Source of the DNA: Thioalbus denitrificans
Lineage (GTDB): Bacteria; Pseudomonadota; Gammaproteobacteria; DSM-26407
DNA: 64,000 bases
Direction of reading: 5' to 3'
Assembly: GCF_003337735.1 (NCBI RefSeq)
Contig: NZ_QPJY01000014.1
Coordinates: forward strand, 1 to 64,000
The number at the start of each line of letters is the position of its first letter. Position 1 is the stretch's first letter. Below, piece after piece: positions 38,187 through 55,186 of the stretch. Below the pieces are notes generated by a model, which saw only the letters and a list, made by a program, of their open reading frames with translations, was not told the DNA's origin and did not search any database. Position numbers and translations under genes: made by a program.

Positions 38187-41100
38187 TTTCTGGGCTCTGT
38201 GCGGCAGTGAACTCCAGCGCCACGAACGCGCAGGACTCGGCAATTTTCTGAGCTGCCTGTGCGGCAGTGAAGCACCTCGGCGGTGTCGGGGCTCTGCAGC
38301 GTCATTTCTGAGCTGCCTGTGCGGCAGTGAAGAGATTTCCTCCAGTGTACCGGGTTCTCCGTGTTTTCTGAGCTGCCTGTGCGGCAGTGAAGGTCTACGG
38401 CGACATCGGCGCCAGCTGGGACGATTTCTGAGCTGCCTGTGCGGCAGTGAAGTTGATGCGGCGCAGCCAGTCGGCGTGCAGCTCTTTCTGAGCTGCCTGT
38501 GCGGCAGTGAAGGCGTAGTCGCGCAGCTCGGCGCTGTTGCCGATTTTCTGAGCTGCCTGTGCGGCAGTGAAGATCAAGAAGGGCGTACCGGAGTCCTACG
38601 ACCATTTCTGAGCTGCCTGTGCGGCAGTGAAGATGTCCGATACCTGGGGCAAGTTCGTGGTGGTTTTCTGAGCTGCCTGTGCGGCAGTGAAGGACGGCGA
38701 ATACTCGCGCGTATCCGGTTCCGTTTTCTGAGCTGCCTGTGCGGCAGTGAAGGTGTCCACGGCGCCGAGACTGGCCTTGCCGTTTTTCTGAGCTGCCTGT
38801 GCGGCAGTGAAGGTGTACAACCACGTGCTACCGGCTGCCCGGGTTTTCTGAGCTGCCTGTGCGGCAGTGAAGCCAGCCAGCCGATGGGGTCTAGGTCGCC
38901 GGCCTTTCTGAGCTGCCTGTGCGGCAGTGAAGCGGATAGCCATCGCGTCGCCGGTCGCCTCCAGTTTCTGAGCTGCCTGTGCGGCAGTGAAGTTCGTGTT
39001 CCAGTCATAAGCCCATCGAGCGATTTTCTGAGCTGCCTGTGCGGCAGTGAAGAGAACGCGCGCCCGACGAATCACCGTGTCGATTTTCTGAGCTGCCTGT
39101 GCGGCAGTGAAGTAATGCGCTGACAGATTGGCCAGCGCCGGACTTTTCTGAGCTGCCTGTGCGGCAGTGAAGGTCCGGCTGCCCCGTGACGCAATTCTGC
39201 TGAGTTTCTGAGCTGCCTGTGCGGCAGTGAAGCTCCCAGGCCTCCGGCTTGTCCGTCATGCCCATTTCTGAGCTGCCTGTGCGGCAGTGAAGGAACCCGG
39301 AGACGGGGCGCACGGTTGCTGTGTTTTCTGAGCTGCCTGTGCGGCAGTGAAGGGCGGGCGCTCATCACGCGGCCCTGGCGGCCGTTTCTGAGCTGCCTGT
39401 GCGGCAGTGAAGGCGTTGCATGCGCCCATTCTCCGCGACACTCATTTCTGAGCTGCCTGTGCGGCAGTGAAGCACCGCCGTCCAGGCGATGACGTCAGCG
39501 AATTTTTCTGAGCTGCCTGTGCGGCAGTGAAGGGCAGGGTCGGTGCCGAGTTGCTCGGGGTAGATTTTCTGAGCTGCCTGTGCGGCAGTGAAGGAAGGGC
39601 GAAACAATCGCCGGGCAGGTGTCGCTTTCTGAGCTGCCTGTGCGGCAGTGAAGGTGGCCGAGGAGCTGCGCCTGGAACTGGTGCTTTTCTGAGCTGCCTG
39701 TGCGGCAGTGAAGGCTTTGGCTCCCGTCGAGCAGACGGTGGCCCATTTCTGAGCTGCCTGTGCGGCAGTGAAGGTTTGCCTATCCACTGGCGCCCGTTGG
39801 TCAGATTTCTGAGCTGCCTGTGCGGCAGTGAAGGCGGCCGCTCACGGGCCACAACTACCTGTGGCTTTCTGAGCTGCCTGTGCGGCAGTGAAGGGTGTAG
39901 GTGAGGATGTCCCTGTCCTCATCCTTTTCTGAGCTGCCTGTGCGGCAGTGAAGGCCAACCCACTCGCCCAACTCCGACCTCTCCCTTTCTGAGCTGCCTG
40001 TGCGGCAGTGAAGATGACACACTGCTCCGTCTGCATCGGCCAGACTTTCTGAGCTGCCTGTGCGGCAGTGAAGTAGATGTAGCCGGCCGTTGTACCGGCC
40101 CGGCTTTTCTGAGCTGCCTATGCGGCAGTGAAGACGCCACGCAAGGCACCACCATCGGGCACGTATTTCTGAGCTGCCTGTGCGGCAGTGAAGCCCTCCC
40201 AAGATCATCCACGCGAGCGCCGCTTTTTCTGAGCTGCCTGTGCGGCAGTGAAGAAGTGGGTCGAGTGGCTCATGGGGTGGCCGCTCTTTCTGAGCTGCCT
40301 GTGCGGCAGTGAAGTTACCCACCCAGCCACGCCAAGCATCCGAGTATTTCTGAGCTGCCTGTGCGGCAGTGAAGGTGACTCGACGACACACAACGCTCGT
40401 CTTGATTTTCTGAGCTGCCTGTGCGGCAGTGAAGAGGGCCTTGCCCTACCTCGTCGGCCTCGCCCGTTTCTGAGCTGCCTGTGCGGCAGTGAAGGTACCT
40501 CACAGGTCAGAGTTTTTCCGCCAGCTTTTCTGAGCTGCCTGTGCGGCAGTGAAGGGGGTAGCGTCCGGCCAGCACAGCAGCCCGCCTTTCTGAGCTGCCT
40601 GTGCGGCAGTGAAGCGTCACCATTGGCATCCACCACCGCGCCGGCCTTTCTGAGCTGCCTGTGCGGCAGTGAAGCGTCACCATTGGCATCCACCACCGCG
40701 CCGGCCTTTCTGAGCTGCCTGTGCGGCAGTGAAGGCAGATTGGACTGTCCGGGTCGATTTCAGCCTTTTCTGAGCTGCCTGTGCGGCAGTGAAGGATGTG
40801 CTTGAGCACTTCTTCGGGCACCTGATTTTCTGAGCTGCCTGTGCGGCAGTGAAGGTCAGCTGGGGGCTGGAGCACGATGTCAGCATTTTCTGAGCTGCCT
40901 GTGCGGCAGTGAAGTGATTGTCTGGTAGCTGGCACTTGGCGTCGCCTTTCTGAGCTGCCTGTGCGGCAGTGAAGTTGCTGCGCGGGTCGAAGTGCCACAG
41001 CAGATCGTTTCTGAGCTGCCTGTGCGGCAGTGAAGATGTAGACGCAAGCACCCTTCGGTGCGCTCTGTTTTCTGAGCTGCCTGTGCGGCAGTGAAGGAGG

Positions 41101-44100
41101 GCAGCGACCCGGCGCAGATCCGCGAGACTTTCTGAGCTGCCTGTGCGGCAGTGAAGCAGTGAGAGAGGCTAGCAGCGCGCCACGGGTGTTTCTGAGCTGC
41201 CTGTGCGGCAGTGAAGATCGGCACGGGCTACTGGGAACAGCTTCAGGCTTTCTGAGCTGCCTGTGCGGCAGTGAAGGCCGGCTCCGCCTGAAGGCGCAGC
41301 ACCGGGATTTTCTGAGCTGCCTGTGCGGCAGTGAAGTTCTTTTCCGTTGTCGTTGTGGTGGTTGTTGTTTTCTGAGCTGCCTGTGCGGCAGTGAAGGCAT
41401 GGGCCAAGGTGGAGCGCGCGGTGCGCGTTTTCTGAGCTGCCTGTGCGGCAGTGAAGGTGGTGACGGACTCCAGCGCGAATGTCATCGATTTCTGAGCTGC
41501 CTGTGCGGCAGTGAAGGTATAGCCGCCGTTTTGCTCGAGGCGCTGGATTTTCTGAGCTGCCTGTGCGGCAGTGAAGCTCGTGCGCGAGAACAAACAGCAC
41601 GTGCGACTTTTCTGAGCTGCCTGTGCGGCAGTGAAGGAGTTCGTTCAGGGCTCGAAGAGCATCCAGGTTTTCTGAGCTGCCTGTGCGGCAGTGAAGTACG
41701 TGGGCGACAAAGGCAACCCGATCCGGCTTTTCTGAGCTGCCTGTGCGGCAGTGAAGTGGCTCGCGCCCACGCCAGTGGCATCGGTAACTTTCTGAGCTGC
41801 CTGTGCGGCAGTGAAGTTTCACGTCCACATGATGCAGGTGCCCCATATTTTCTGAGCTGCCTGTGCGGCAGTGAAGCTGCCGCGCCTCCGTATATGGCTA
41901 TATCAGCATTTCTGAGCTGCCTGTGCGGCAGTGAAGCCCGGCTTGGCCGACTGGCTGTTAACCGTAATTTTCTGAGCTGCCTGTGCGGCAGTGAAGGTGC
42001 TTGCCACGAAGTTGATGGTGTCCTCATTTTTCTGAGCTGCCTGTGCGGCAGTGAAGTATGTCTCCGATTTCGGAGAGGTCCGTTTTGTTTTCTGAGCTGC
42101 CTGTGCGGCAGTGAAGTGAGCCTGCAGCCCAACGACATCATCCCGCTTTTTCTGAGCTGCCTGTGCGGCAGTGAAGTCCCTTGCCAGGACATTAGCGTTG
42201 CCGGTCGTTTTCTGAGCTGCCTGTGCGGCAGTGAAGGGCAGCGGCAGCGGACTCACTGAGCACGCCGTTTTCTGAGCTGCCTGTGCGGCAGTGAAGGAAG
42301 TGACCGGACACACGTACCTGATCAAACATTTCTGAGCTGCCTGTGCGGCAGTGAAGGATCTCCAATACCGCACCACCGGACGCGCTGATTTCTGAGCTGC
42401 CTGTGCGGCAGTGAAGCTCCCGTTCTGCCGCCTTCACCGCCACCTGCATTTCTGAGCTGCCTGTGCGGCAGTGAAGCAGGGCGTGGTATGGAATGAGTCC
42501 GGGGGGTTTTTCTGAGCTGCCTGTGCGGCAGTGAAGGCCCGGGCCCGCCTGGAGGATGTGACGCCAGAGTTTCTGAGCTGCCTGTGCGGCAGTGAAGGGG
42601 TCCAGGAACCAGGGCGGTGCTGGAGCATCTTTCTGAGCTGCCTGTGCGGCAGTGAAGTACGTGGCCGCTGTAAATGCCGCGGTGGCCAATTTCTGAGCTG
42701 CCTGTGCGGCAGTGAAGCCGGAACGGTGCGCCGGCCTCCCAGTCCCACATTTCTGAGCTGCCTGTGCGGCAGTGAAGGACGTAGATGTTCATGGTTCACA
42801 CTCCTTGCTTTTCTGAGCTGCCTGTGCGGCAGTGAAGGGAGACGGTTTTTCACCCAACCGCGCCCGTCTTTTCTGAGCTGCCTGTGCGGCAGTGAAGTTA
42901 TCTCCATCCCGAGCAATGAATTTCGGGACTTTCTGAGCTGCCTGTGCGGCAGTGAAGCTGCCCTTGTTCCAGTAGATCGTGGTACTGGTTTTCTGAGCTG
43001 CCTGTGCGGCAGTGAAGTTGGCTTCAACCGTGGGCGGCGAGTTCGTCAATTTCTGAGCTGCCTGTGCGGCAGTGAAGGACTCGGCTGCGGTCGCTGCAGT
43101 CTCGGCATCTTTCTGAGCTGCCTGTGCGGCAGTGAAGGACTACGAGGAGAGCGAGCGCGTCGCCGCCAATTTCTGAGCTGCCTGTGCGGCAGTGAAGCCC
43201 GCCTGGGGCGGCAGTATGTCCCGATGTGCTTTCTGAGCTGCCTGTGCGGCAGTGAAGGGACCCTAACGCGTATCGCCATAGCCCCGTAATTTCTGAGCTG
43301 CCTGTGCGGCAGTGAAGTTCAAGTTCATCGTTACCACTCAGCCGACCAGTTTTCTGAGCTGCCTGTGCGGCAGTGAAGGTTTCATTCGACGTACTCAGGG
43401 CGGTGAGTTTTTTCTGAGCTGCCTGTGCGGCAGTGAAGCTCCGGTCTCGTCGCCCCAGGCGTAGAGCCCATTTCTGAGCTGCCTGTGCGGCAGTGAAGGA
43501 GTGCGGCCGCTACGCGCTCCAGCGTGTCCTTTTCTGAGCTGCCTGTGCGGCAGTGAAGGCCGTAGGCCGCCAGCTGTTCGAGGGTCTGCTTTTCTGAGCT
43601 GCCTGTGCGGCAGTGAAGGTGCTCCCCGGCGCAAGGGGTCCTCCCCCTACTTTCTGAGCTGCCTGTGCGGCAGTGAAGACACCGGCGAAATCCACAGCGG
43701 CGGTGATGGTTTTCTGAGCTGCCTGTGCGGCAGTGAAGCTCTGGTTCGGACCGCCGTGCCCGCCGTCGCTTTTCTGAGCTGCCTGTGCGGCAGTGAAGCA
43801 TGATTCTGTCGTATCGGAGTTTGCCGAGGGTTTCTGAGCTGCCTGTGCGGCAGTGAAGACCGACTGCCGGGAGCGTCACCGCGCCGCCGTTTTCTGAGCT
43901 GCCTGTGCGGCAGTGAAGCTGGAGCAGCCGCCCGAGGACGTGCTCGTTGTTTTCTGAGCTGCCTGTGCGGCAGTGAAGAAGCTGGCATCGGTTGAGCGCG
44001 CCATCGAGCATTTCTGAGCTGCCTGTGCGGCAGTGAAGGACAGGGCTCGACTACGACGCCTGGCGGTTCTTTTCTGAGCTGCCTGTGCGGCAGTGAAGCT

Positions 44101-46742
44101 GGCGCAGCTTCTCGCCGGCCTCGCGCATGCTTTCTGAGCTGCCTGTGCGGCAGTGAAGACGAGCTGGGCGAGGCCGCGCCCTACTCGCCCTTTCTGAGCT
44201 GCCTGTGCGGCAGTGAAGCGGTCGGCCATCCAGTGGGCCCGGGTGCGCCATTTCTGAGCTGCCTGTGCGGCAGTGAAGGGGCGGACCCCTGGAGCTGGGG
44301 CGGGAGTGGATTTCTGAGCTGCCTGTGCGGCAGTGAAGCTCCACGGCCGCCTCGGCGGCCGCCCGCTCCCTTTCTGAGCTGCCTGTGCGGCAGTGAAGTG
44401 TCCGGCGCGGCCGGCCCGGTAGCCACCGGCTTTCTGAGCTGCCTGTGCGGCAGTGAAGGGCGAAATCGAGTACCTCATCGCACTCCCGGCTTTCTGAGCT
44501 GCCTGTGCGGCAGTGAAGTCTCCGCCCGCCGCCTGCCACTTTGCCTCCCTTTTCTGAGCTGCCTGTGCGGCAGTGAAGTACCCCTACGCCCGCCCGCATG
44601 TGGCCGAGGTTTTCTGAGCTGCCTGTGCGGCAGTGAAGTTCATCCGGGGCGGCCGCTGGCCGGGACTGTTTTTCTGAGCTGCCTGTGCGGCAGTGAAGAT
44701 CCGCTCCGGCCGTGGCGAGGAAGTGCTAAATTTCTGAGCTGCCTGTGCGGCAGTGAAGAACCCGTGCCATACACATTCACGACCGAATAATTTCTGAGCT
44801 GCCTGTGCGGCAGTGAAGTGCGCGCGGTAGTCGAGCGTGACGCTCTCGGCTTTCTGAGCTGCCTGTGCGGCAGTGAAGTCTCGAGCGTGGCCGAAGCCCG
44901 GGCCGCGCTTTTTCTGAGCTGCCTGTGCGGCAGTGAAGGAAGGCGGCTTTCACCTTGGGCATGTTCTCCATTTCTGAGCTGCCTGTGCGGCAGTGAAGCC
45001 GGTCGATGGCGCCCCGGTTGACCCGCGTCCGTTTCTGAGCTGCCTGTGCGGCAGTGAAGCGTCGAGGACGGAAGGTCCGGCACCCCTGGAATTTCTGAGC
45101 TGCCTGTGCGGCAGTGAAGTGCAGCGTCCAGGATCTCGCCGCCGGTCTGCTTTTCTGAGCTGCCTGTGCGGCAGTGAAGGTACGTATTACCAGCGATCCC
45201 GCTCTCGGTGTTTTCTGAGCTGCCTGTGCGGCAGTGAAGTGGTGCGCAAGGCCCGCGAGCTGTCCATCTATTTTCTGAGCTGCCTGTGCGGCAGTGAAGG
45301 AGCTCGGGGAGCGCCACTACCTGCGCTACATTTTCTGAGCTGCCTGTGCGGCAGTGAAGGTGCTCGGGAGCAGAGACGGGGGGCGCGTCGATTTCTGAGC
45401 TGCCTGTGCGGCAGTGAAGTAGGTTTCTCGGATTCCGCCCGGGCCGGTTCCTTTCTGAGCTGCCTGTGCGGCAGTGAAGGGTCTCATACATGTACCGATG
45501 TTCTGCGCACATTTCTGAGCTGCCTGTGCGGCAGTGAAGCTTTGGGGTGCGCTGTGGTGAGTCCATCACATGTTTCTGAGCTGCCTGTGCGGCAGTGAAG
45601 GCTGACCCGCAGGTCCTGGTAGTCCGCAGACCTTTCTGAGCTGCCTGTGCGGCAGTGAAGACCAAGGTGCCGAGTGCTCGGGAGCAGAGACGTTTCTGAG
45701 CTGCCTGTGCGGCAGTGAAGACGCGGGTCAACCGGGGCGCCATCGACCGGGTTTTCTGAGCTGCCTGTGCGGCAGTGAAGGCGGCGATGGAATCGCGGCT
45801 CATGCCCTGGGTTTTCTGAGCTGCCTGTGCGGCAGTGAAGGGTGGGCGGTGCCGCCAGCGCCGCGCCGGTGATTTCTGAGCTGCCTGTGCGGCAGTGAAG
45901 GAGGGGTGGTTCCCTGGGTTGCACGTGCACGATTTCTGAGCTGCCTGTGCGGCAGTGAAGAAACTGGGCCCTTATGCCAAGGATGCCCGCAATTTCTGAG
46001 CTGCCTGTGCGGCAGTGAAGGTGGCTGTTCGAGGAGGCGCAGCTCCTGCGCGATTTCTGAGCTGCCTGTGCGGCAGTGAAGGAGCGGCTCGGGGTGTATG
46101 TGCTGGACACCGATTTCTGAGCTGCCTGTGCGGCAGTGAAGGGGAAACAGCATCACATGCTGAGCGGGACAGCTTTCTGAGCTGCCTGTGCGGCAGTGAA
46201 GGTGTTCGGCGCGAACCCGACCGCGGCGAACCATTTCTGAGCTGCCTGTGCGGCAGTGAAGCCTGCCCCGGTGCGGGCCATCGGTTGCACGCATTTCTGA
46301 GCTGCCTGTGCGGCAGTGAAGGCCTGCCGCCAGCTCGACCGCCAGCGGGCCAGTTTCTGAGCTGCCTGTGCGGCAGTGAAGTTTCGCATCCGGCGGGAAA
46401 CGCGGGCGCCCCATTTCTGAGCTGCCTGTGCGGCAGTGAAGACCATGCGACGGACTGCGGATGCGCTGACGATTTTCTGAGCTGCCTGTGCGGCAGTGAA
46501 GGCCCCGGGTGCGGATGTTCGGCCGGGATCGCCCTTTCTGAGCTGCCTGTGCGGCAGTGAAGTTGCCGCCGCTGTCCGCGGCGGTGGTTCCGCTTTTCTG
46601 AGCTGCCTGTGCGGCAGTGAAGGGCACACAGCGCCGGCGCGCCGATCCTGCTTTTTTCTGAGCTGCCTGTGCGGCAGTGAAGTTGGTCCCGCCGGCGGAC
46701 TTGGCGGCGCTGGCTTTCTGAGCTGCCTGTGCGGCAGTGAAG
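38187..46742 (-). CRISPR. Type I-F CRISPR array, 142 regular repeats plus one degenerate
   Basis: Regular 28-bp repeats run from 38245 to 46742 with a truncated, mutated repeat at 38187-38212, giving 142 spacers. Ten spacers are 33 bp and the rest 32 bp. On the transcribed minus strand the repeat begins CTTCACTGCC and folds as CTGCC/GGCAG around loop GCACA, the Cas6f substrate form. Orientation is set by the degenerate repeat at the low-coordinate end and the cas genes at the high end. By eye only one regular repeat differs (one base, 40120). One spacer is present twice in a row (40615-40646 and 40675-40706). The 60-bp period is a multiple of three, which creates long false reading frames on both strands. 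Confidence 0.99.
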
Positions 46743-46796
46743 TATTGGCTATGATCTCTAATGCCTTGTTGTTAAAGAGCTTGCTTCAAAAAGAAG
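46743..46796 (-). promoter_or_regulatory. CRISPR leader
   Basis: This AT-rich stretch directly precedes the first repeat on the transcribed strand and includes GCTCTTTAACAACAAGG. It should carry the array promoter and the sequences that guide new spacer insertion. No clean -35/-10 pair was identified. Confidence 0.65.
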
Positions 46797-46825
46797 CGCC
46801 CACACCCTTTTTCAGGGTGTGGGCG
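46797..46825 (-). terminator. Strong hairpin between cas6f and the array leader
   Basis: A perfect 12-bp stem CGCCCACACCCT/AGGGTGTGGGCG with a 5-base loop lies 46 bp after the cas6f stop. On the minus strand it is followed by CTTCTTTTT, so it is likely the terminator of the cas operon, separating its transcript from that of the array. Confidence 0.75.
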
Positions 46826-46871
46826 TAACTATTTGATCTTCAATACGTTGATTCTGAGTGCAGGGAAAGGG

Positions 46872-47438
46872 TCAGAACCAGGGGATCGTTGCCTCTGAAC
46901 TCAAGCCATACGTGTTGAATGCTCCATCGACCGGCTGTTCCTGGGGGGGCAGATGTTCCAGAAACAGGCAGAACGAATGCCCATTGCTCTGGCTCTTCAA
47001 GCGGAGAAATGGAAGTTTTATCCGCGTCTCTATGGAATCGGGCAGCTTTGCCTCGACGTCTTGATTAGTGAGTTGGGGATGGCGTTTGAGATAGCGACGT
47101 CGCAAACGTTCGGCGTTGGACTTCGGCTGCACGCGCCGTATTCGGCAATGCTGAACATTGTTTGGCACGATGGATAACTGCGGATGTACGAGGTGGTCCT
47201 GCATTCCGACCAGCCAATTCTCCGCCATCAATCTCTCGAGGTGATCGGCCGTCCCGTGTAGTCGCAGACACCGCCCCAGAGATGGCTTTTCCTGCTGCAC
47301 CTCGGGGAAGCTGATTCCGATTGTTCGGCTGTCAATCTGAACCAAGGCGCGGTGGAGCTTTGAGAAAAGGGCATTCATCAGCAGCGGCGCCGGGAATTCC
47401 GGGTCGGGAAGTAGCCGAAAATTCAGGTAGTGGTCCAT
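46872..47438 (-). CDS. cas6f: Cas6f/Csy4 crRNA-processing endoribonuclease
   Basis: The 188-residue protein begins MDHYLNFRLLPDPEFP as in Csy4. Catalytic H29 lies in LFSKLHRALV, and the serine region is RLKSQSNG (about 149-153). The arginine-rich helix AERLRRRYLKRH that grips the repeat stem is present, and the protein ends YGLSSEATIPWF. It cuts the pre-crRNA at the base of each repeat hairpin and stays bound to the 3' end of the crRNA in the Csy complex. It follows csy3 by three bases. Confidence 0.97.
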   Translation of the reverse strand: MDHYLNFRLLPDPEFPAPLLMNALFSKLHRALVQIDSRTIGISFPEVQQEKPSLGRCLRLHGTADHLERLMAENWLVGMQDHLVHPQLSIVPNNVQHCRIRRVQPKSNAERLRRRYLKRHPQLTNQDVEAKLPDSIETRIKLPFLRLKSQSNGHSFCLFLEHLPPQEQPVDGAFNTYGLSSEATIPWF

Positions 47439-47441
47439 GAT

Positions 47442-48476
47442 TTACTCCTTTTCGCCGAACACGCCGCCTCGTATCAGCGTTGCCATCACAAAGTGTTGAT
47501 GACCTTTCTCAGGCGCCTGTTTCTTCAGGACCCAGTTGTCGAGCAGATTGTAGAAGTCGGTCTTCTGCTTGGGCTGGCGGTACGCCTTGCCCTGGGAGGT
47601 TACGGAGCCGTAGGGTTCCACCGCGATCGGTCCCAAGTCGATCGTATCTGCGTACCAGGTATCGATGGTCCTGATTGCATTGCCGATTTTCTGGCTGTGC
47701 ATTCCCGCAACTTCACCGACCGTGTAGAGGGTCTTGCTCTTCTGTCCCCGCTTGTCGCCCCTATCGAGAATGAGTTCCTGGGACGGGTAGACCTCCTGGC
47801 CGTCGCCGACGCGGGCATAGGCGATAATCTCCAGCAGGACATGGCTTCTGCTGGAAAGCCCCATTTCCACTACAGCGGCCAGTTGCTCGAGTTGTTTCGC
47901 CACCGTGTCTGGGGCGCCAAACTCCCGCAGGGAGAGTCTGTGAGCATCAAAGACCCACTCCTTCGTCACGTTTCCTTCTTCCAGATGGCGTATCTGCACT
48001 TCGATGGACTCCGCACCGATCCGGTTGCGCCACAGGAACCGGGCGTTGGCCAGGTTGCTGGCGTAGCGGTACGCCAGCTCGGAAAACCCTATTTCTCCGA
48101 TGTATTGTTGAACGACTGCATGCAGCTGCTCCTGATAGTCGGCGTTGTTGCAGGCCGAGGGTACCCCGGCACCGCCGAGGACGCGCAGGGTGAAGCGGAC
48201 CCGTAGCGTGTCTGCATTATTGGGCAGGGTGGCGACATCGACGGTCTGCAGGTTGGGCGCCTGAATCGAGGCATCCAGTTTGGCGGGGTCCTGCTCTTTG
48301 GTCTTCAGGCGGTTGGAGATTGTGCCGCGTATGGATTTTTCGCGCACTTCGACGGCTGGCCATTGAGCACCGTTTTTCCTGTCTTCCCACGCGCCGGCAC
48401 TGAAGAGTGCGTCGGAGGGGTCCAGCTTGCGTTCAAAGGCGAGGACGGATGCGGTTTTCAGGTCGTTCTTGGCCAT
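47442..48476 (-). CDS. csy3: Cas7f/Csy3 backbone subunit
   Basis: The 344-residue protein starts MAKNDLKTASVLAFERKLDPSDALF and has the Csy3 patterns WPAVEVREKSIRGTISNRL, ANARFLWRNRIGAESIEV and SQELILDRGDKRGQKSKTLY. Six copies coat the spacer part of the crRNA. It lies 12 bp after csy2. Confidence 0.97.
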   Translation of the reverse strand: MAKNDLKTASVLAFERKLDPSDALFSAGAWEDRKNGAQWPAVEVREKSIRGTISNRLKTKEQDPAKLDASIQAPNLQTVDVATLPNNADTLRVRFTLRVLGGAGVPSACNNADYQEQLHAVVQQYIGEIGFSELAYRYASNLANARFLWRNRIGAESIEVQIRHLEEGNVTKEWVFDAHRLSLREFGAPDTVAKQLEQLAAVVEMGLSSRSHVLLEIIAYARVGDGQEVYPSQELILDRGDKRGQKSKTLYTVGEVAGMHSQKIGNAIRTIDTWYADTIDLGPIAVEPYGSVTSQGKAYRQPKQKTDFYNLLDNWVLKKQAPEKGHQHFVMATLIRGGVFGEKE

Positions 48477-48488
48477 GCTTGATACTCC

Positions 48489-49463
48489 TTATGCGATGCC
48501 TGTAGTGGCGGTTTCCATTGCCTGGGAATAGCGATTGATGCAGCGGTAGATGCCCTTGGCTGAGTCGGCCTCGCTGTACCAAAGCAGTTGGTTGAGATCC
48601 GTGAGTCGGTGCGGGCTGACCCATTCCCCCAGCGAATAGAGGCTTTCCACGAAACGGAAGGGTGTGGAATCGTCACGGGAGTTCGCCACCTCTTCAGCCG
48701 CATAAAGTGGCGACAGGGCGGCATAGCCGACCGGGATCGGTACCAACCATCCTGGTTTCCTGCGGATGCCCCACCGCAGCTCACCCGGCTTTTCCGGATC
48801 AGGCATATCGGGATCGAAGTTCAGGCGGGTGAGATCCAGCAGTGCATCCAGGGCGCATGCGTCAGGTTGTCGCTCCCGCAGCTCAGACAGGCGTTCCGCC
48901 AGGCGATCGGGCCGTTCAACCAGGGCAAAGCCGGGTAGAAGACGCCGGCGGAACTTTCGCAGGAGTAGTCTCTGACCCTCGAGATCCTCCTCCAGTGGCC
49001 ACCACTGGGCGTCAAAGCGCCTGCCCTCGCGCTTGGGCAGGATGCTGCCCCCGGCAATGCGCATGCCGTGGACTACGGTCATGGCATCATCGGCGAATTC
49101 ACGCCCCTTCCTGGCCGGCAGATAGTCGCGTACGGCGATCACAAGGCTGACCTCCATGTGGGTCCGTCCCTCCTCCACGAGCGCCTGGGTCGATCCATCT
49201 TTTCCAACTGGATTTCGGGTCAAACGGAAGACCTGGGTGCGTTTCCCTGCCGGTTGGGAGATTTGGGGCTCGAAGTCGTGGCAGACAATGCCCACACCTG
49301 CGAAGCCTTTTTCCAGAACGCTGGTGAATTGGCGCTCCAGTGCGTGAACGAATCCGGTGAACGCGGTGGGAGAGGGGAACCCCCAGCTGAGGGGGCCGGA
49401 TATGGCATTGGCGTTCTGGACCCGCAGGCGCGGCAAAAGCAACAAGGCGGTCGGTTCAGTCAT
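48489..49463 (-). CDS. csy2: Cas5f/Csy2 subunit
   Basis: The 324-residue protein has the Csy2 opening LLLLPRLRVQNANAISGPLSWGFPSPTAFTGFVHALER and later VGYAALSPLY. It binds the 5' handle of the crRNA with Csy1 and helps in PAM recognition. It overlaps csy1 by eight bases. Confidence 0.96.
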   Translation of the reverse strand: MTEPTALLLLPRLRVQNANAISGPLSWGFPSPTAFTGFVHALERQFTSVLEKGFAGVGIVCHDFEPQISQPAGKRTQVFRLTRNPVGKDGSTQALVEEGRTHMEVSLVIAVRDYLPARKGREFADDAMTVVHGMRIAGGSILPKREGRRFDAQWWPLEEDLEGQRLLLRKFRRRLLPGFALVERPDRLAERLSELRERQPDACALDALLDLTRLNFDPDMPDPEKPGELRWGIRRKPGWLVPIPVGYAALSPLYAAEEVANSRDDSTPFRFVESLYSLGEWVSPHRLTDLNQLLWYSEADSAKGIYRCINRYSQAMETATTGIA

Positions 49464-50760
49464 AGAAGTCGAGCTCCATGCGCATAAGGTTGATTTCCTT
49501 CTCCATCACCGACTGCCATTCGCGTGCTTCCAGTTCTCCCATGGGTGTCTGGGTCGATGTGAGCTGAGCGTTCAGCCAGTTGGCAAAGCGTCTGCAGATA
49601 CCATCTCTCCAATCGACCCCGGTGCAGAGAGCCGCAAAGGATTCATCCTGTCCGGCTCGCTCCGGATCGAGCCAGCACTGTTCATCCACGTTCAACCGGC
49701 ACATTTCATCCAGGGTCCAGCCCGGTTCGTTTTCCTGGGTTTCAGCGGCAAACAGCAGAACTTCGTCGCGGAGATGTGCTATCAGTTCCGCGCGGGTGTT
49801 GCGGATGCGGACGTTGTTGACGTCCTGAACACGCGCAAGAAAATCACGCAGGATGCGGAGCAGATCCCGCACCCGCGGCCGTCTGCCGAACAGTCGGTCG
49901 AAGATGCTTTCCGTTCTTAGCGGCGGACGCACCGGTTCCGAGAGCCAGAGGGGAGGGACAGCTGCCAGCAGGTAGTTTTCACCATAGCGCTCGCTGTTCA
50001 GTTGGCTTATGTTTTGCGGTTTGGTGCCGCCGAAATTCTGGATGGCCAGATGAGGGTATTCGCGGAAACCGTGCGGGTATGGCTCCCGCTCCCGGTAAGC
50101 CTTGCGGGCGGCTTTTGCTTCTTCCGAAAACCTGTCTTCACGGATGGTGCTTACAACGTGGTGCACCAGCGAGGTTGGGAAGAGGGGGGCTAGCAGGTGG
50201 TAGCCGTTACCCTCCATGGGCCAGTAGAGTTGCTTGGCGAACTTGTGGGAGGCCGGCTGTCCCTTGGGCTTGGACAGGTCGGCGAAGGCCGCCATCCAGC
50301 TTTTGGCCTGCTCTTCGTCATTCGAGAAAGCGGCCTGCAAAGCCGTGTTGCCCTCGATGGCCAGATCGAGGAGCGTTTTCCCACCGACCTGCAATTTCAG
50401 GAATTTGTAGACATCAAGCGCGGCGGCATTGCCGACGACATCAGCGGTGACCTCATCGATCGTATGGGTGCCGACCAGCAATTCATCGGCTTCCGGATTG
50501 CCGGGCGCATTCAGGCTGGTGCCTTTGGCATCGGGGTGGGTGTACTTGAGCGCATGGGTGACCTGCTGGATCTGCCCGACACGGTTGGCCGCGTTGGCTA
50601 TCCACCGCGCCGGCTGATGGTCCTTCAGCAGTCTTTCGCGCTCGTGGACCTCGTTTTCCTTGACCCGCTCCAGTTTGGGCTGAAGCCGCTCTTGGAGGAA
50701 ATCTTTGATCACCTGCCGGATAAGAGCCGTACTGATGGGAGATTCGGCCGAATTAGCCAC
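49456..50760 (-). CDS. csy1: Cas8f/Csy1 large subunit
   Basis: The start used is the GTG at 50760, with AAGGAG eight bases upstream, giving 434 residues. Csy1 patterns include FLQERLQPKLERV, THALKYTHPDAKGTS, LGGTKPQNISQLNSERYGENYLLAA (here FGGTKPQNISQLNSERYG) and WRDGICRRFANWLNAQL. It reads the PAM and recruits Cas2-3. The upstream ATG at 50829 has no ribosome site and would overlap the promoter. Confidence 0.95.
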   Translation of the reverse strand: MANSAESPISTALIRQVIKDFLQERLQPKLERVKENEVHERERLLKDHQPARWIANAANRVGQIQQVTHALKYTHPDAKGTSLNAPGNPEADELLVGTHTIDEVTADVVGNAAALDVYKFLKLQVGGKTLLDLAIEGNTALQAAFSNDEEQAKSWMAAFADLSKPKGQPASHKFAKQLYWPMEGNGYHLLAPLFPTSLVHHVVSTIREDRFSEEAKAARKAYREREPYPHGFREYPHLAIQNFGGTKPQNISQLNSERYGENYLLAAVPPLWLSEPVRPPLRTESIFDRLFGRRPRVRDLLRILRDFLARVQDVNNVRIRNTRAELIAHLRDEVLLFAAETQENEPGWTLDEMCRLNVDEQCWLDPERAGQDESFAALCTGVDWRDGICRRFANWLNAQLTSTQTPMGELEAREWQSVMEKEINLMRMELDFYD

Positions 50761-50800
50761 AAGCGCACACTCCTTGTGATCTGCTGATTTGACTGTCGAG

Positions 50801-50855
50801 ACGATACACGCCATAAAACAACATGACAATCATGTGTTTGTATTAGTGGTCATGT
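50801..50855 (-). promoter_or_regulatory. csy operon promoter with palindromic operator
   Basis: On the minus strand TTGTCA (50829-50824), a 17-bp spacer and TATCGT (50806-50801) form a sigma-70-like promoter with a leader of about 34 bases to csy1. The -35 lies inside the palindrome ACATGA-N3-TCATGT (50821-50835). A third half-site TCATGT occurs at 50850-50855, 20 bp from the matching half of the palindrome, that is two helical turns. The 197-bp gap to cas2-3 holds no gene. Confidence 0.6.
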
Positions 50856-50957: not shown

Positions 50958-53900
50958 TTATCGGGCTCGACTGAACCCGAGGGCCGGGTGGTAGATCCAG
51001 CCTTTCACTTCACCATTGGCCGGGAGGTCGACAATGCCGAACAGCCGGGCACAATGCGGAATTTCCATACCAAGCCTTTCTGCCAGCGATTCCAGGGCTT
51101 CGCTGTAGTCTGGCTTGCCCCAGAATTCGATGCGTGGTCCGGGCTTGAGCTCGGGTGTTTGCAAGAGGTTGCCTGCCGCTGTCCTGTTACCGTCGCGCTC
51201 AAGACGGAAGAAGTCGATCTCATCGTCATCATCTGGCAGCAGACCGTATCGCTGTCGGCCCACCGGGTCCAGGCGGAAAGGCGCGGTGCGCTGCAGTTCG
51301 CCGCTCAGGGTGGCGCGTGTATTCCACCACAACGCGATGGGCTTCAATTTCAGCGCACCACCCGCCGTCGTTCCCAACATCAGGGAGCGAAGCTTGGCAT
51401 GCTCCAGATCCACGAGATTCCGTGTCGGGACGAGTGGTTCGCGCTCGCGGATCCGGGTGGAGGAGTCGATGGCGTTTAACTGCTGAGGGCTCAGGAGCTC
51501 GGTCAGCCTGTGGGTTGCAAGCGGAAAGGTTTCACTCTCGAAGCCAGGACGGCAGAAGGCGGGCCCGCCCGGCTGGATGAGGTGCTGAACGTTGGTGTCC
51601 AGCAGATAGACATTGGCCGTGTCGCAGGGCCCTGGACGATGACGGCGTACCCGGCCGGCCAACTGGATGATGGAGCGCATGGAGGAGGGTTCGACCACCG
51701 CCCAGTCGTAGTCATGATCCCGGCCCACTTCGGCGACGGCGGTAGCCAGAACAACGAAGATTTGCTCAGGCTCTGAACCCTTATCAAGATACTCGTGAAT
51801 TTCTGATTCTTCGAATACCGCGTCAGGATTCTTCCTGTTCAGGAACCTATCCAGTTGGTGTTCTATGCCTGAACGAACCAGCAGCGGATGCTGTGCATGG
51901 TAAACGCAGAGATGAATCCTGTGATCCTCCTTCGCGCCCAGGGTATAAAGCGCCTTGGCCGTATCCGTCAGCGGACCGATATTGGCCATCCGTATCAGGC
52001 CAAAGCTGAACCGTTTTCCGGTTCTCGGATCCCGCGTGTGATGTCGCGCGTGGAGTTCGTGGATATACCCATGCAGATGCCTTGCCAGCGCCGTCGTTAC
52101 TATTTCCTGATCTTGGCAATGTGTGATTTGCAGGGGTTTGATGACGGCTCTGCGACGAACCTCTGCCTCCGACAGCTTGCGGAGACGTCTGTCTACGAAG
52201 GCGTGATGGGCCCTTGAATAGCTATCGCTCTCTGCGTGATCCCCAGCCTCGGCTGAGTACTCGTCAAACCAGGCGCAGCATACAGACAGGGGTTGGCCGG
52301 GAACGCCGCGGTTGCGCTGATAGATTCGCCGGCCCTCCAGGTATGCCTGGAACAGGCCCCGTACCAGGGCGGGGGGGAGGGTTGCGGACGAGAGCAGGAC
52401 ACGGCTGCCCAGCAGGCCGGCCCAATGAACGAGGCGGCTAACCGCGGGCAGATCGTCGGTGTCGAAGTCGTCCGGTTCATCCAGGACCAGGTCCGCGCTC
52501 ATGAGGCGCAGCATCGGTGCGATTTGACGGCCGCCGCGAGTACCCTCCGTTGCCGGGATCAAGTGATCGATTGTGCAGGCGAGAACAGGTGCATTGAGGA
52601 GTTTTTGGGCGTCTATGTTATTCCTCAGCCAGCGGTTCAGGGGACCGTCCTCCAGACTCCCCTCGAAGTGGACGTAATGCTGTTCTGGCAACAGGTCGGC
52701 GCTGGACTCTGAGCCCTCCACTGACAATCGATTCTCCTCCTCACGCTGCTGTTCATGTAACCGCCGAATGGCGCCCCCACCCACCAATACTGCAAGGTCC
52801 TCGGCGCCCAGGCCCATACGCTCCCGATAGGCGTCGCCTGTCTGCAGCGTCAGGGTACGCAGCCCCAGGGCAATGCTGAAACGGGCACCTTGCCGTGGAT
52901 CGGCCAGTCCATAGAGGATACGACCATTTGCCAGCGTCTTGCCCGTGCCGGTCGATGCCATGTTGACACCGAAAAAGCCCTGGTACGAACTGCGAGCCTG
53001 AATGCTTGAGGCCAGGTCGAAGGCGCGATCCTGCCACCGAAATGCACGGTTCTTGGTGCGCTGCCGGAAACCCTTGTGCCGGGCAATGCTTGGAAGCTGC
53101 CTGGTCAGCCGGGGCAGTGTGCGGACAATCCGGCTGGCATTGACCTCGACGCCGATCAGGTGTTCGTCGAGCCGTTGCTTGAGGGCGCCTGATTCGTGAT
53201 CCGTATTGGCATGGAGTGGGTATCCAGGACTTCCATACCGGCTGTGGCTGGGTTGGCTGGAGTAGTAGTGGTCGGCCAGCATCAGGGCCATGCGTGCGTG
53301 GTGCAGCACGTATGGGTCATCCAGCCAACTGGCATTCAGCATGGCGGCACGCTGCAGAATCGTTCGGGCGATCTTGGATGCGTGGGCACGCCACTGCACA
53401 CTGGCAAAGGGTAGATCCTTGCCGAAACGCCAACAGGCTTCAATTTCGTTTTCCGTGACATCGAACTGGAGCCCGCACCATTCGTCTTCGATTTCCCCCG
53501 GCAGGTTTGCCAGCAGTTCGGAACGGACAGGACTGCCCTTTACCTGGGTTGGCAGGCGATGGTGGCTGACTATGAGCCAACCGACGACGCGCGCCAGCGG
53601 AGGCAGTTTCTCAAACGGCCCGGAAATACGGCGATCCATCCCGTCCCGAGAAAGCCGATCCAGCACGCCTTTCTCTCCACCTTGCTTCAGTGCCGCCAGT
53701 CGCTGCAGCCATGTTTCGTCATTGTCCCGGTCGACAAAGGCTTCGAACAGCCGCAGCGAGACCCATTCGTGGCGGTAGGCGTCCGCGACCGGCTTCTTGC
53801 CAGTAAGCTTTTTCTGAAAGGCCTGGTTTGCCTTGCCGAAATCATGGAAGAGCGAGGCAAGTGCCGCCAGTAGCCGTATGTCCTCGGCGGTATGCCAATC

Positions 53901-54212
53901 GTTTTCGTCCTGGCCACGCAGTACATCCCGGGCAGTCGTGTTGGTGGGGGTGGTCCCTTGGGCGTTGAACCGTCGGGCGTCGCCGACGATCCACAAAAGT
54001 TCACTGTGATCCTTTCCGCGTATCCAGTGGCAGGCCACAGCCGTATTCTTGCGGGCGGTCTTGCGTAGCATGCGACGCAGTGTCTCGAGCCCCTGTGCGG
54101 TGATGGGGGTTTGCCAAGTGCGATCTCCGCGCCGCTCGGCGAACTGATCGAGGATACGGCGGCTTTCGGTCAGTGCATTCTTGCTGCATTGGGAGACCAG
54201 GAGGACATTCAA
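50958..54212 (-). CDS. cas2-3: Cas2-Cas3 fusion (Cas3f) nuclease-helicase
   Basis: The 1084-residue protein has an N-terminal Cas2-like domain (about 1-95, MNVLLVSQCSKNALTESRRILDQFAER). An HD nuclease follows with H123-D124 in LFHDFGKAN and HH near 217. The helicase has Walker A at 421-427 (STGTGKT), DEPD at 578-581, SSATLP and a C-terminal QLAGRVRRHR. It joins Cas1 for spacer uptake and shreds target DNA found by the Csy complex. It overlaps cas1 by four bases. Confidence 0.97.
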   Translation of the reverse strand: MNVLLVSQCSKNALTESRRILDQFAERRGDRTWQTPITAQGLETLRRMLRKTARKNTAVACHWIRGKDHSELLWIVGDARRFNAQGTTPTNTTARDVLRGQDENDWHTAEDIRLLAALASLFHDFGKANQAFQKKLTGKKPVADAYRHEWVSLRLFEAFVDRDNDETWLQRLAALKQGGEKGVLDRLSRDGMDRRISGPFEKLPPLARVVGWLIVSHHRLPTQVKGSPVRSELLANLPGEIEDEWCGLQFDVTENEIEACWRFGKDLPFASVQWRAHASKIARTILQRAAMLNASWLDDPYVLHHARMALMLADHYYSSQPSHSRYGSPGYPLHANTDHESGALKQRLDEHLIGVEVNASRIVRTLPRLTRQLPSIARHKGFRQRTKNRAFRWQDRAFDLASSIQARSSYQGFFGVNMASTGTGKTLANGRILYGLADPRQGARFSIALGLRTLTLQTGDAYRERMGLGAEDLAVLVGGGAIRRLHEQQREEENRLSVEGSESSADLLPEQHYVHFEGSLEDGPLNRWLRNNIDAQKLLNAPVLACTIDHLIPATEGTRGGRQIAPMLRLMSADLVLDEPDDFDTDDLPAVSRLVHWAGLLGSRVLLSSATLPPALVRGLFQAYLEGRRIYQRNRGVPGQPLSVCCAWFDEYSAEAGDHAESDSYSRAHHAFVDRRLRKLSEAEVRRRAVIKPLQITHCQDQEIVTTALARHLHGYIHELHARHHTRDPRTGKRFSFGLIRMANIGPLTDTAKALYTLGAKEDHRIHLCVYHAQHPLLVRSGIEHQLDRFLNRKNPDAVFEESEIHEYLDKGSEPEQIFVVLATAVAEVGRDHDYDWAVVEPSSMRSIIQLAGRVRRHRPGPCDTANVYLLDTNVQHLIQPGGPAFCRPGFESETFPLATHRLTELLSPQQLNAIDSSTRIREREPLVPTRNLVDLEHAKLRSLMLGTTAGGALKLKPIALWWNTRATLSGELQRTAPFRLDPVGRQRYGLLPDDDDEIDFFRLERDGNRTAAGNLLQTPELKPGPRIEFWGKPDYSEALESLAERLGMEIPHCARLFGIVDLPANGEVKGWIYHPALGFSRAR

Positions 54213-55186
54213 GCGGCCGATCCCCCAATCTCTTTTGCGATTCGCTTGAGGGTGTCGATCATGAAATCGAGCGCTTCGTTGCGTGTCAGCCCGTCTATGC
54301 AGGCCTGACGGAACTCCTGTTCGTCATGTCCGGCCATGGCGGAGATGAAAGCTTGCGGGAGTATGATGGCATCCTTCACCAGATCCGCCACATCAAACAC
54401 CAGACCGCCCCGGCGTGTCTTGCCGTGCAGAACCGCCAGCCCGTGCGGCAGGCCGAGGACCCAGGTGGCCGTTGCGCCCAGGCCATAAGCCAGGTAGTTG
54501 CCGTGGTCCAGAAAAGCGTTGGCTGGATCGGTTCCGGTGCCCATTTTTGCGCGGACAAACTCGCCGTATCCCATGGTGCTGGCGGCGATTTTGAAGAGTT
54601 CCTTGGTGAGGCGGGCTTCGAGCGTGAGCAGGTTTGTTGTATCGGATGAGGCCTCAATGCCCGCTCGAGTCCGTTTCAGCAATGGGGCCAGGGCGCGTTC
54701 CGCTACCTCGAAACCCGCGTCCTGCAGGGCCCGGCTCTTCAGCCAGTGGGTCTCAATGCGCTGCAGTCGGGCGTATTGGAATGCTTTCGCGGCTTCCAGG
54801 CGTAGTGAGTCGTCAAACCAGAAGCGGACCCAGTGCTGCAGGTATTCCGTTGGCCGGTATTCGCTCTGTGGAGTGAGCCAGGCCACTTCCACATCCACTT
54901 CATTGGCACTGAACAAGGGTGTTCCGCCACCTCCGCAGAAACCCACCAGAACGCCCGCCTTGGCCAACTCACGCATCGCCGCTTGGGTTATCGATGTGCC
55001 CGTCCCCAGCAGCAGGCAGGTGGTGTTGGCGATGGGTATGTTCCAATACAGGGACTGCTTCCCTTCATCCGTGACGTATTCAACCCGGCCGCCATTGACG
55101 AGAACGCGACAATGCTGAATGTAGTAGAGGTTGGCGCGCTTCGAATGTAAAACGCTCTTGAGGTCGCTTGGTGACAAATCGTCCAT
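54209..55186 (-). CDS. cas1: Cas1 integrase, I-F type
   Basis: The 325-residue protein has the I-F Cas1 opening LKSVLHSKRANLYYIQHCRVLVNGGRVEYVT and the active-site regions LTLEARLTKELFK (Glu, about 190), LPHGLAVLHGK (His, about 254) and FDVADLVKDA (Asp, about 268). It inserts new spacers at the leader end with Cas2-3. GGGAAGA lies before the ATG. It is the first gene of the cas1-cas2-3 pair. Confidence 0.97.
   Translation of the reverse strand: MDDLSPSDLKSVLHSKRANLYYIQHCRVLVNGGRVEYVTDEGKQSLYWNIPIANTTCLLLGTGTSITQAAMRELAKAGVLVGFCGGGGTPLFSANEVDVEVAWLTPQSEYRPTEYLQHWVRFWFDDSLRLEAAKAFQYARLQRIETHWLKSRALQDAGFEVAERALAPLLKRTRAGIEASSDTTNLLTLEARLTKELFKIAASTMGYGEFVRAKMGTGTDPANAFLDHGNYLAYGLGATATWVLGLPHGLAVLHGKTRRGGLVFDVADLVKDAIILPQAFISAMAGHDEQEFRQACIDGLTRNEALDFMIDTLKRIAKEIGGSAA

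Follow-up and report, generated by a model that had tools for sequence, protein, structure and literature searches.

Can a clustered regularly interspaced short palindromic repeats (CRISPR) array disclose, from its spacers alone, a target longer than one spacer, the protospacer adjacent motif (PAM) beside it, and a history of repeated meetings with the same invader? The question is raised by a 64,000-nucleotide stretch of the Thioalbus denitrificans genome (contig NZ_QPJY01000014.1, positions 1 to 64,000; hereafter, the window), which contains a long type I-F array with two pairs of overlapping spacers. We propose, with a probability of roughly 85%, that the best explanation overall is that this array twice took a record of one spot in a single invader lineage. 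Because the cas operon is found on the minus strand to the right of the array, we placed the leader at the right array end and took the minus strand as the CRISPR RNA (crRNA) sense, and spacers are numbered from that end, with spacer 1 the newest. The features on which the argument depends are the following.

38245..46742, minus strand: CRISPR array, 142 repeats of 28 nt and 141 spacers.
46743..46871, minus strand: presumed leader, the gap from csy4 to the first repeat, at the newest array end; its orientation is inferred from the cas operon.
45360..45391, minus strand (crRNA sense): spacer 23, older member of pair 1, 32 nt, GTGCTCGGGAGCAGAGACGGGGGGCGCGTCGA.
45661..45692, minus strand: spacer 18, younger member of pair 1, 32 nt, ACCAAGGTGCCGAGTGCTCGGGAGCAGAGACG.
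44999..45031, minus strand: spacer 29, older member of pair 2, 33 nt.
45721..45752, minus strand: spacer 17, younger member of pair 2, from the opposite strand of the 44999-45031 target.

A preliminary description of this DNA had stated that the spacers at 45360-45391 and 45661-45692 share sequence at opposite ends with a 13-bp shift, and this was borne out: the 19-mer GTGCTCGGGAGCAGAGACG forms the start of the former and the end of the latter, with identity at 19/19 positions and an offset of 13. Both spacers are exactly 32 nt long and each is flanked by perfect 28-nt repeats. When all 141 spacers were compared all-against-all in both orientations and scored by end-to-end overlap, the top scores were 32 (an exact duplicate), 30 (pair 2) and 19 (pair 1), and the next best was 7; because that score is so low, the pair-1 overlap is not a matter of chance. 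The staggered overlap, with no comparable chance overlap in the array, likewise supports the earlier claim that both spacers derive from one target, which they would have sampled twice, 13 bp apart. Merging them gives a putative contiguous target of 45 bp, ACCAAGGTGCCGA-GTGCTCGGGAGCAGAGACG-GGGGGCGCGTCGA.

The second pair, absent from the preliminary description, consists of the spacers at 44999-45031 and 45721-45752, which have 30/30 nt in common in opposite orientation and whose ends differ by 2-3 nt. All four pair members fall within 13 neighbouring spacers of the 141 (P = 0.0017; P = 0.0007 with adjacency), and their order is interleaved: spacer 30 (Mu), spacer 29 (target 2) and spacer 23 (target 1), followed by spacer 18 (target 1), spacer 17 (target 2) and spacer 16 (Mu). 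Both members of pair 2 adjoin a spacer against Mu-like phage (spacers 30 and 16; P = 0.004, calculated post hoc). This clustering is not easily explained by chance, and in its simplest reading it points to a single virus lineage met on two occasions, in agreement with the earlier proposal of repeated uptake from the same invader. Under this reading, each of the two fragments would have been excised by Cas1-Cas2-3 at a GG (CC) PAM of its own in one virus lineage, during an older encounter recorded around spacers 23-30 and a younger one recorded around spacers 16-18. The invader may be a Mu-like transposable phage, since Mu-like spacers 16 and 30 bracket the cluster.

Mu-like transposable phages are matched by eight spacers, and the matched genes include those for the terminase large subunit (phrog_2) and Mu gp27 (PF11985).

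46683..46714, minus strand: spacer 1 (newest), matching the terminase gene of Mu-like phages, 30/32.
45781..45812, minus strand: spacer 16, matching the Mu gp27 gene of Mu-like phages, 26-28/32 (PF11985).
44939..44970, minus strand: spacer 30, matching the terminase large subunit gene of Mu-like phages, 29/32.
44159-44190, 44099-44130 and 44039-44070: spacers 43, 44 and 45, Mu-like phage matches, of which spacer 45 is the weakest.
39894-39925 and 39834-39865: spacers 114 and 115, Mu-like phage matches.

Homologues of several array spacers came from sequenced phages, from a prophage-like region in another genome of the class and, by way of the terminase of that region, from 80 IMG/VR loci. Shuffled spacers reached 23/32 identities in three loci at most; six of the Mu-matching spacers did so in 11 to 44 loci. 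Spacers against Mu-like phages tend to be neighbours (spacers 43-45 and 114-115; P = 0.0035), a result that weakens to two neighbouring pairs when the spacer at 44039 is left out, and such adjacency is as expected when one invasion yields several spacers.

The merged pair-1 sequence also gives a view of the DNA beyond a protospacer, and it makes the PAM side readable for the younger of the two spacers alone. Past the spacer at 45661-45692, the plus strand of the merge reads ...GAGACG/GGGGGCGCG, so that the flank is GGGGG and the adjacent dinucleotide is GG, or 5'-CC in crRNA sense. The published PAM of type I-F systems is GG on the 3' side of the protospacer (PMC4117759, PMC5059440), or CC (PMC8482600). 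The preliminary description was therefore correct about the crRNA sense, about the CC flank and about its being the PAM expected for type I-F, and overstated in holding that the overlap reveals the PAM, given that it supplies one GG within a run of G against a background GG frequency of 9.4% in the array spacers. The run at this flank comprises six G in all and accommodates GG in several registers; for this reason, pair 1 by itself does not fix the PAM register.

Flanks of homologues of other spacers provide independent support for a CC PAM, with the qualification that these homologues are relatives, distinct from the true targets. The test set comprised 11 other spacers with homologues, mostly in Mu-like phages; only the best homologues were used, and rows were averaged by hand. 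GG stood at offset 0 of the plus-strand protospacer in 54% of the best homologues, at offsets 1 to 4 in 14, 0, 9 and 21%, and at the opposite edge in 7%. For individual spacers, GG directly followed the 3' end of the plus-strand protospacer in 30/44 loci (44939), 21/31 (45781), 5/8 (44159) and 3/3 (44039). In several of the cases lacking GG, the first flank base was variable among homologues or the homologue had diverged at the PAM end. The CC PAM of type I-F was thus found both at the merged pair-1 flank and beside homologues of other spacers.

Comparison of all spacers with sequenced phages returned three partial homologues. The spacer at 40254-40286 resembles the DNA methyltransferase gene of Acinetobacter phage ABMM1 (29/33), and that at 42177-42208 resembles a hypothetical protein gene of Bacteroides phage BS162P3 (27/32); these single best phage homologues also have a GG flank. 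The peptide encoded by the BS162P3 homologue presumably resembles a cytosine methyltransferase motif. The spacer at 43138-43169 is like a stretch (27/32) of the LESphi2 portal gene, from a Pseudomonas phage; this homologue lacks the GG flank and is divergent on its PAM side.

Several results weigh against a double record of one invader lineage. The search of phage, prophage and plasmid sequence for the merged 45-bp sequence that the preliminary description had called for was run and widened, and it found no source. We found neither merged target (represented by ACCAAGGTGCCGAGTGCTCGGGAGCAGAGACGGGGGGCGCGTCGA and CGGACGCGGGTCAACCGGGGCGCCATCGACCGGGT) in database sequence, whether by exact, mismatched or codon-degenerate comparison (host genome, IMG/VR, GTDB, a sample of the class, phages and plasmids). 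In particular, GTGCTCGGGAGCAGAGACG did not occur outside the array in the 4.14-Mb host assembly (exact and mismatched search), and the exact 19-mer had no match beyond the array itself in IMG/VR and GTDB genomes. There was no match to the merged 45-mer in phages, to a 25-mer of merged pair 1 when 369 genomes of the class were scanned allowing up to 3 mismatches, to pair 1 as degenerate patterns, to the pair-2 target as an exact or codon-degenerate pattern, or to the spacer at 45240 as a degenerate pattern, and comparison of the leader-proximal third of the array with plasmids gave nothing significant. Pairs 1 and 2 were also absent, as DNA and as peptide, from every Mu-like locus examined (the 80 loci and 40 extra Mu-like contig stretches), in which the pair peptides in all six frames scored no higher than shuffled peptides. 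A continuous 45-bp target is consequently something that we infer, the Mu matches are relatives and not the true targets, and the pair-1 PAM, which depends on one dinucleotide located within a run of G, is weak when taken alone. The missing source is to be expected because the lineage is sparsely sampled, with one other genome of its order in the collection searched.

How the same spot came to be sampled twice admits more than one account. Independent naive uptakes from a few often-met viruses may have struck neighbouring PAMs, which we regard as a serious possibility at somewhat less than even odds. In simulations with 141 uptakes, 2 to 8 viruses, each 38 kb long, gave a mean of 3.4 to 0.8 overlapping pairs (at least 19 nt), so that a handful of viruses of 38-50 kb yields roughly the number of overlaps observed. 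Chance resampling is less at ease with the confinement of all four members to 13 spacers (P = 0.0017), since 13 spacers drawn from a single virus gave a mean of only 0.06 overlapping pairs, and 30 spacers gave 0.3.

Alternatively, adaptation may have been primed, or driven by interference: an older spacer with a partial match to an escape mutant of the virus would have recruited Cas1-Cas2-3, and a new spacer would have been taken beside the primed protospacer. We entertain this account tentatively. Both pairs lie inside the 13 spacers and are interleaved, and in type I-F systems priming draws new protospacers from both strands in the neighbourhood of the old one (PMC4117759, PMC5059440). Against it, pair members stand 5 and 12 spacers apart and not consecutively, and two uptakes at one spot need no priming, because uniform sampling of the simulated 2-8 viruses by 141 spacers already predicts a similar number of pairs. 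A more specific version, with the second bout primed by older spacers at the protospacers from which they came and the array holding, as a result, a natural chronology of primed uptake from a Mu-like phage, seems to us rather improbable.

For pair 2 alone, a single capture site might suffice if one of the fragments underwent a slip of about 2 nt before being inserted flipped, as opposed to capture at two PAMs on opposite strands. The ends of this pair are only 2-3 nt apart and one member is 33 nt long, and in type I-F adaptation flips are enriched among slips of at least 2 nt, as off-length spacers are among slips (PMC5059440). However, flipped captures are rare, amounting to about 0.5% of protospacers (PMC5059440), and opposite-strand PAMs are common in DNA of 66% guanine plus cytosine; we consider a slipped and flipped fragment unlikely.

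The neighbouring spacers at 40615-40646 and 40675-40706 are identical and are probably a duplicated repeat-spacer unit. Although array duplication thus exists, an origin of the shared 19 nt by rearrangement inside the array instead of two uptakes has a negligible probability and is ruled out by the staggered register, because repeat-spacer duplication cannot yield a staggered overlap of two 32-nt spacers between perfect repeats.

Several known systems are close to the present case. In Sulfolobus, overlapping new spacers from both strands were merged into target contigs from which an invariant CCN PAM was read, and PAM-side ends varied only where runs of C give overlapping PAMs; natural Sulfolobus arrays rarely contain overlapping spacers (Erdmann and Garrett 2012, PMC3468723). 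Our analysis resembles that study in reading a target and its PAM from overlapping spacers and in the blurring of the PAM edge by a homopolymer run; it differs in resting on two natural pairs in one bacterial type I-F array, for neither of which a target was found, as compared with a large number of spacers acquired experimentally by type I loci of archaea. During type I-F adaptation in Pectobacterium atrosepticum, about 90% of spacers are 32 nt and about 10-12% are 33 nt (Richter 2014, PMC4117759; Staals 2016, PMC5059440), and the GG/CC PAM and the mixture of 32- and 33-nt spacers are alike here. That system also makes multiple uptakes per invader, from both strands, with slipping and flipping; multiple uptake is likewise seen in the present array, but the history given here comes from a natural array, and priming is not seen directly. 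Type I-F arrays of Pseudomonas (PMC8482600) have the same subtype and the same canonical CC PAM, in contrast to which this array is long (141 spacers) and belongs to a sparsely sampled lineage.

With its canonical type I-F PAM, spacer lengths and gene set, the finding is a tidy instance of a known process and involves no new mechanism, and knowledge of type I-F immunity is unchanged by it. Its value lies in showing cleanly that, even for a virus missing from databases, the spacers of an array can by themselves supply a target exceeding a single spacer in length, the PAM of that target and evidence that the virus was met repeatedly, and in connecting a lineage of sparse sampling with transposable phages of the Mu type.

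The surrounding locus is an unremarkable type I-F CRISPR system that appears to be complete. The array repeat on the minus strand is CTTCACTGCCGCACAGGCAGCTCAGAAA, with 141 of the 142 copies alike and one variant at 40107; 131 spacers are 32 nt long and 10 (7%) are 33 nt. The six type I-F cas products each score far above the curated NCBIfam cut-off, and their genes lie in order in one operon on one strand.

46872..47438, minus strand: csy4/cas6f (TIGR02563).
47442..48476, minus strand: csy3/cas7f (TIGR02566).
48489..49463, minus strand: csy2/cas5f (TIGR02565).
49456..50829, minus strand: csy1/cas8f (TIGR02564).
50958..54212, minus strand: cas3f, the type I-F Cas2-3 fusion (TIGR02562).
54209..55186, minus strand: cas1f (TIGR03637).

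This full cas set, together with a 28-nt repeat of the I-F type and spacers of about 32 nt, places the system in type I-F (I-F1). Between csy4 and the array, a hairpin at 46797-46828 is followed on the minus strand by a T-rich stretch and may serve as terminator for the cas operon, ahead of the leader.
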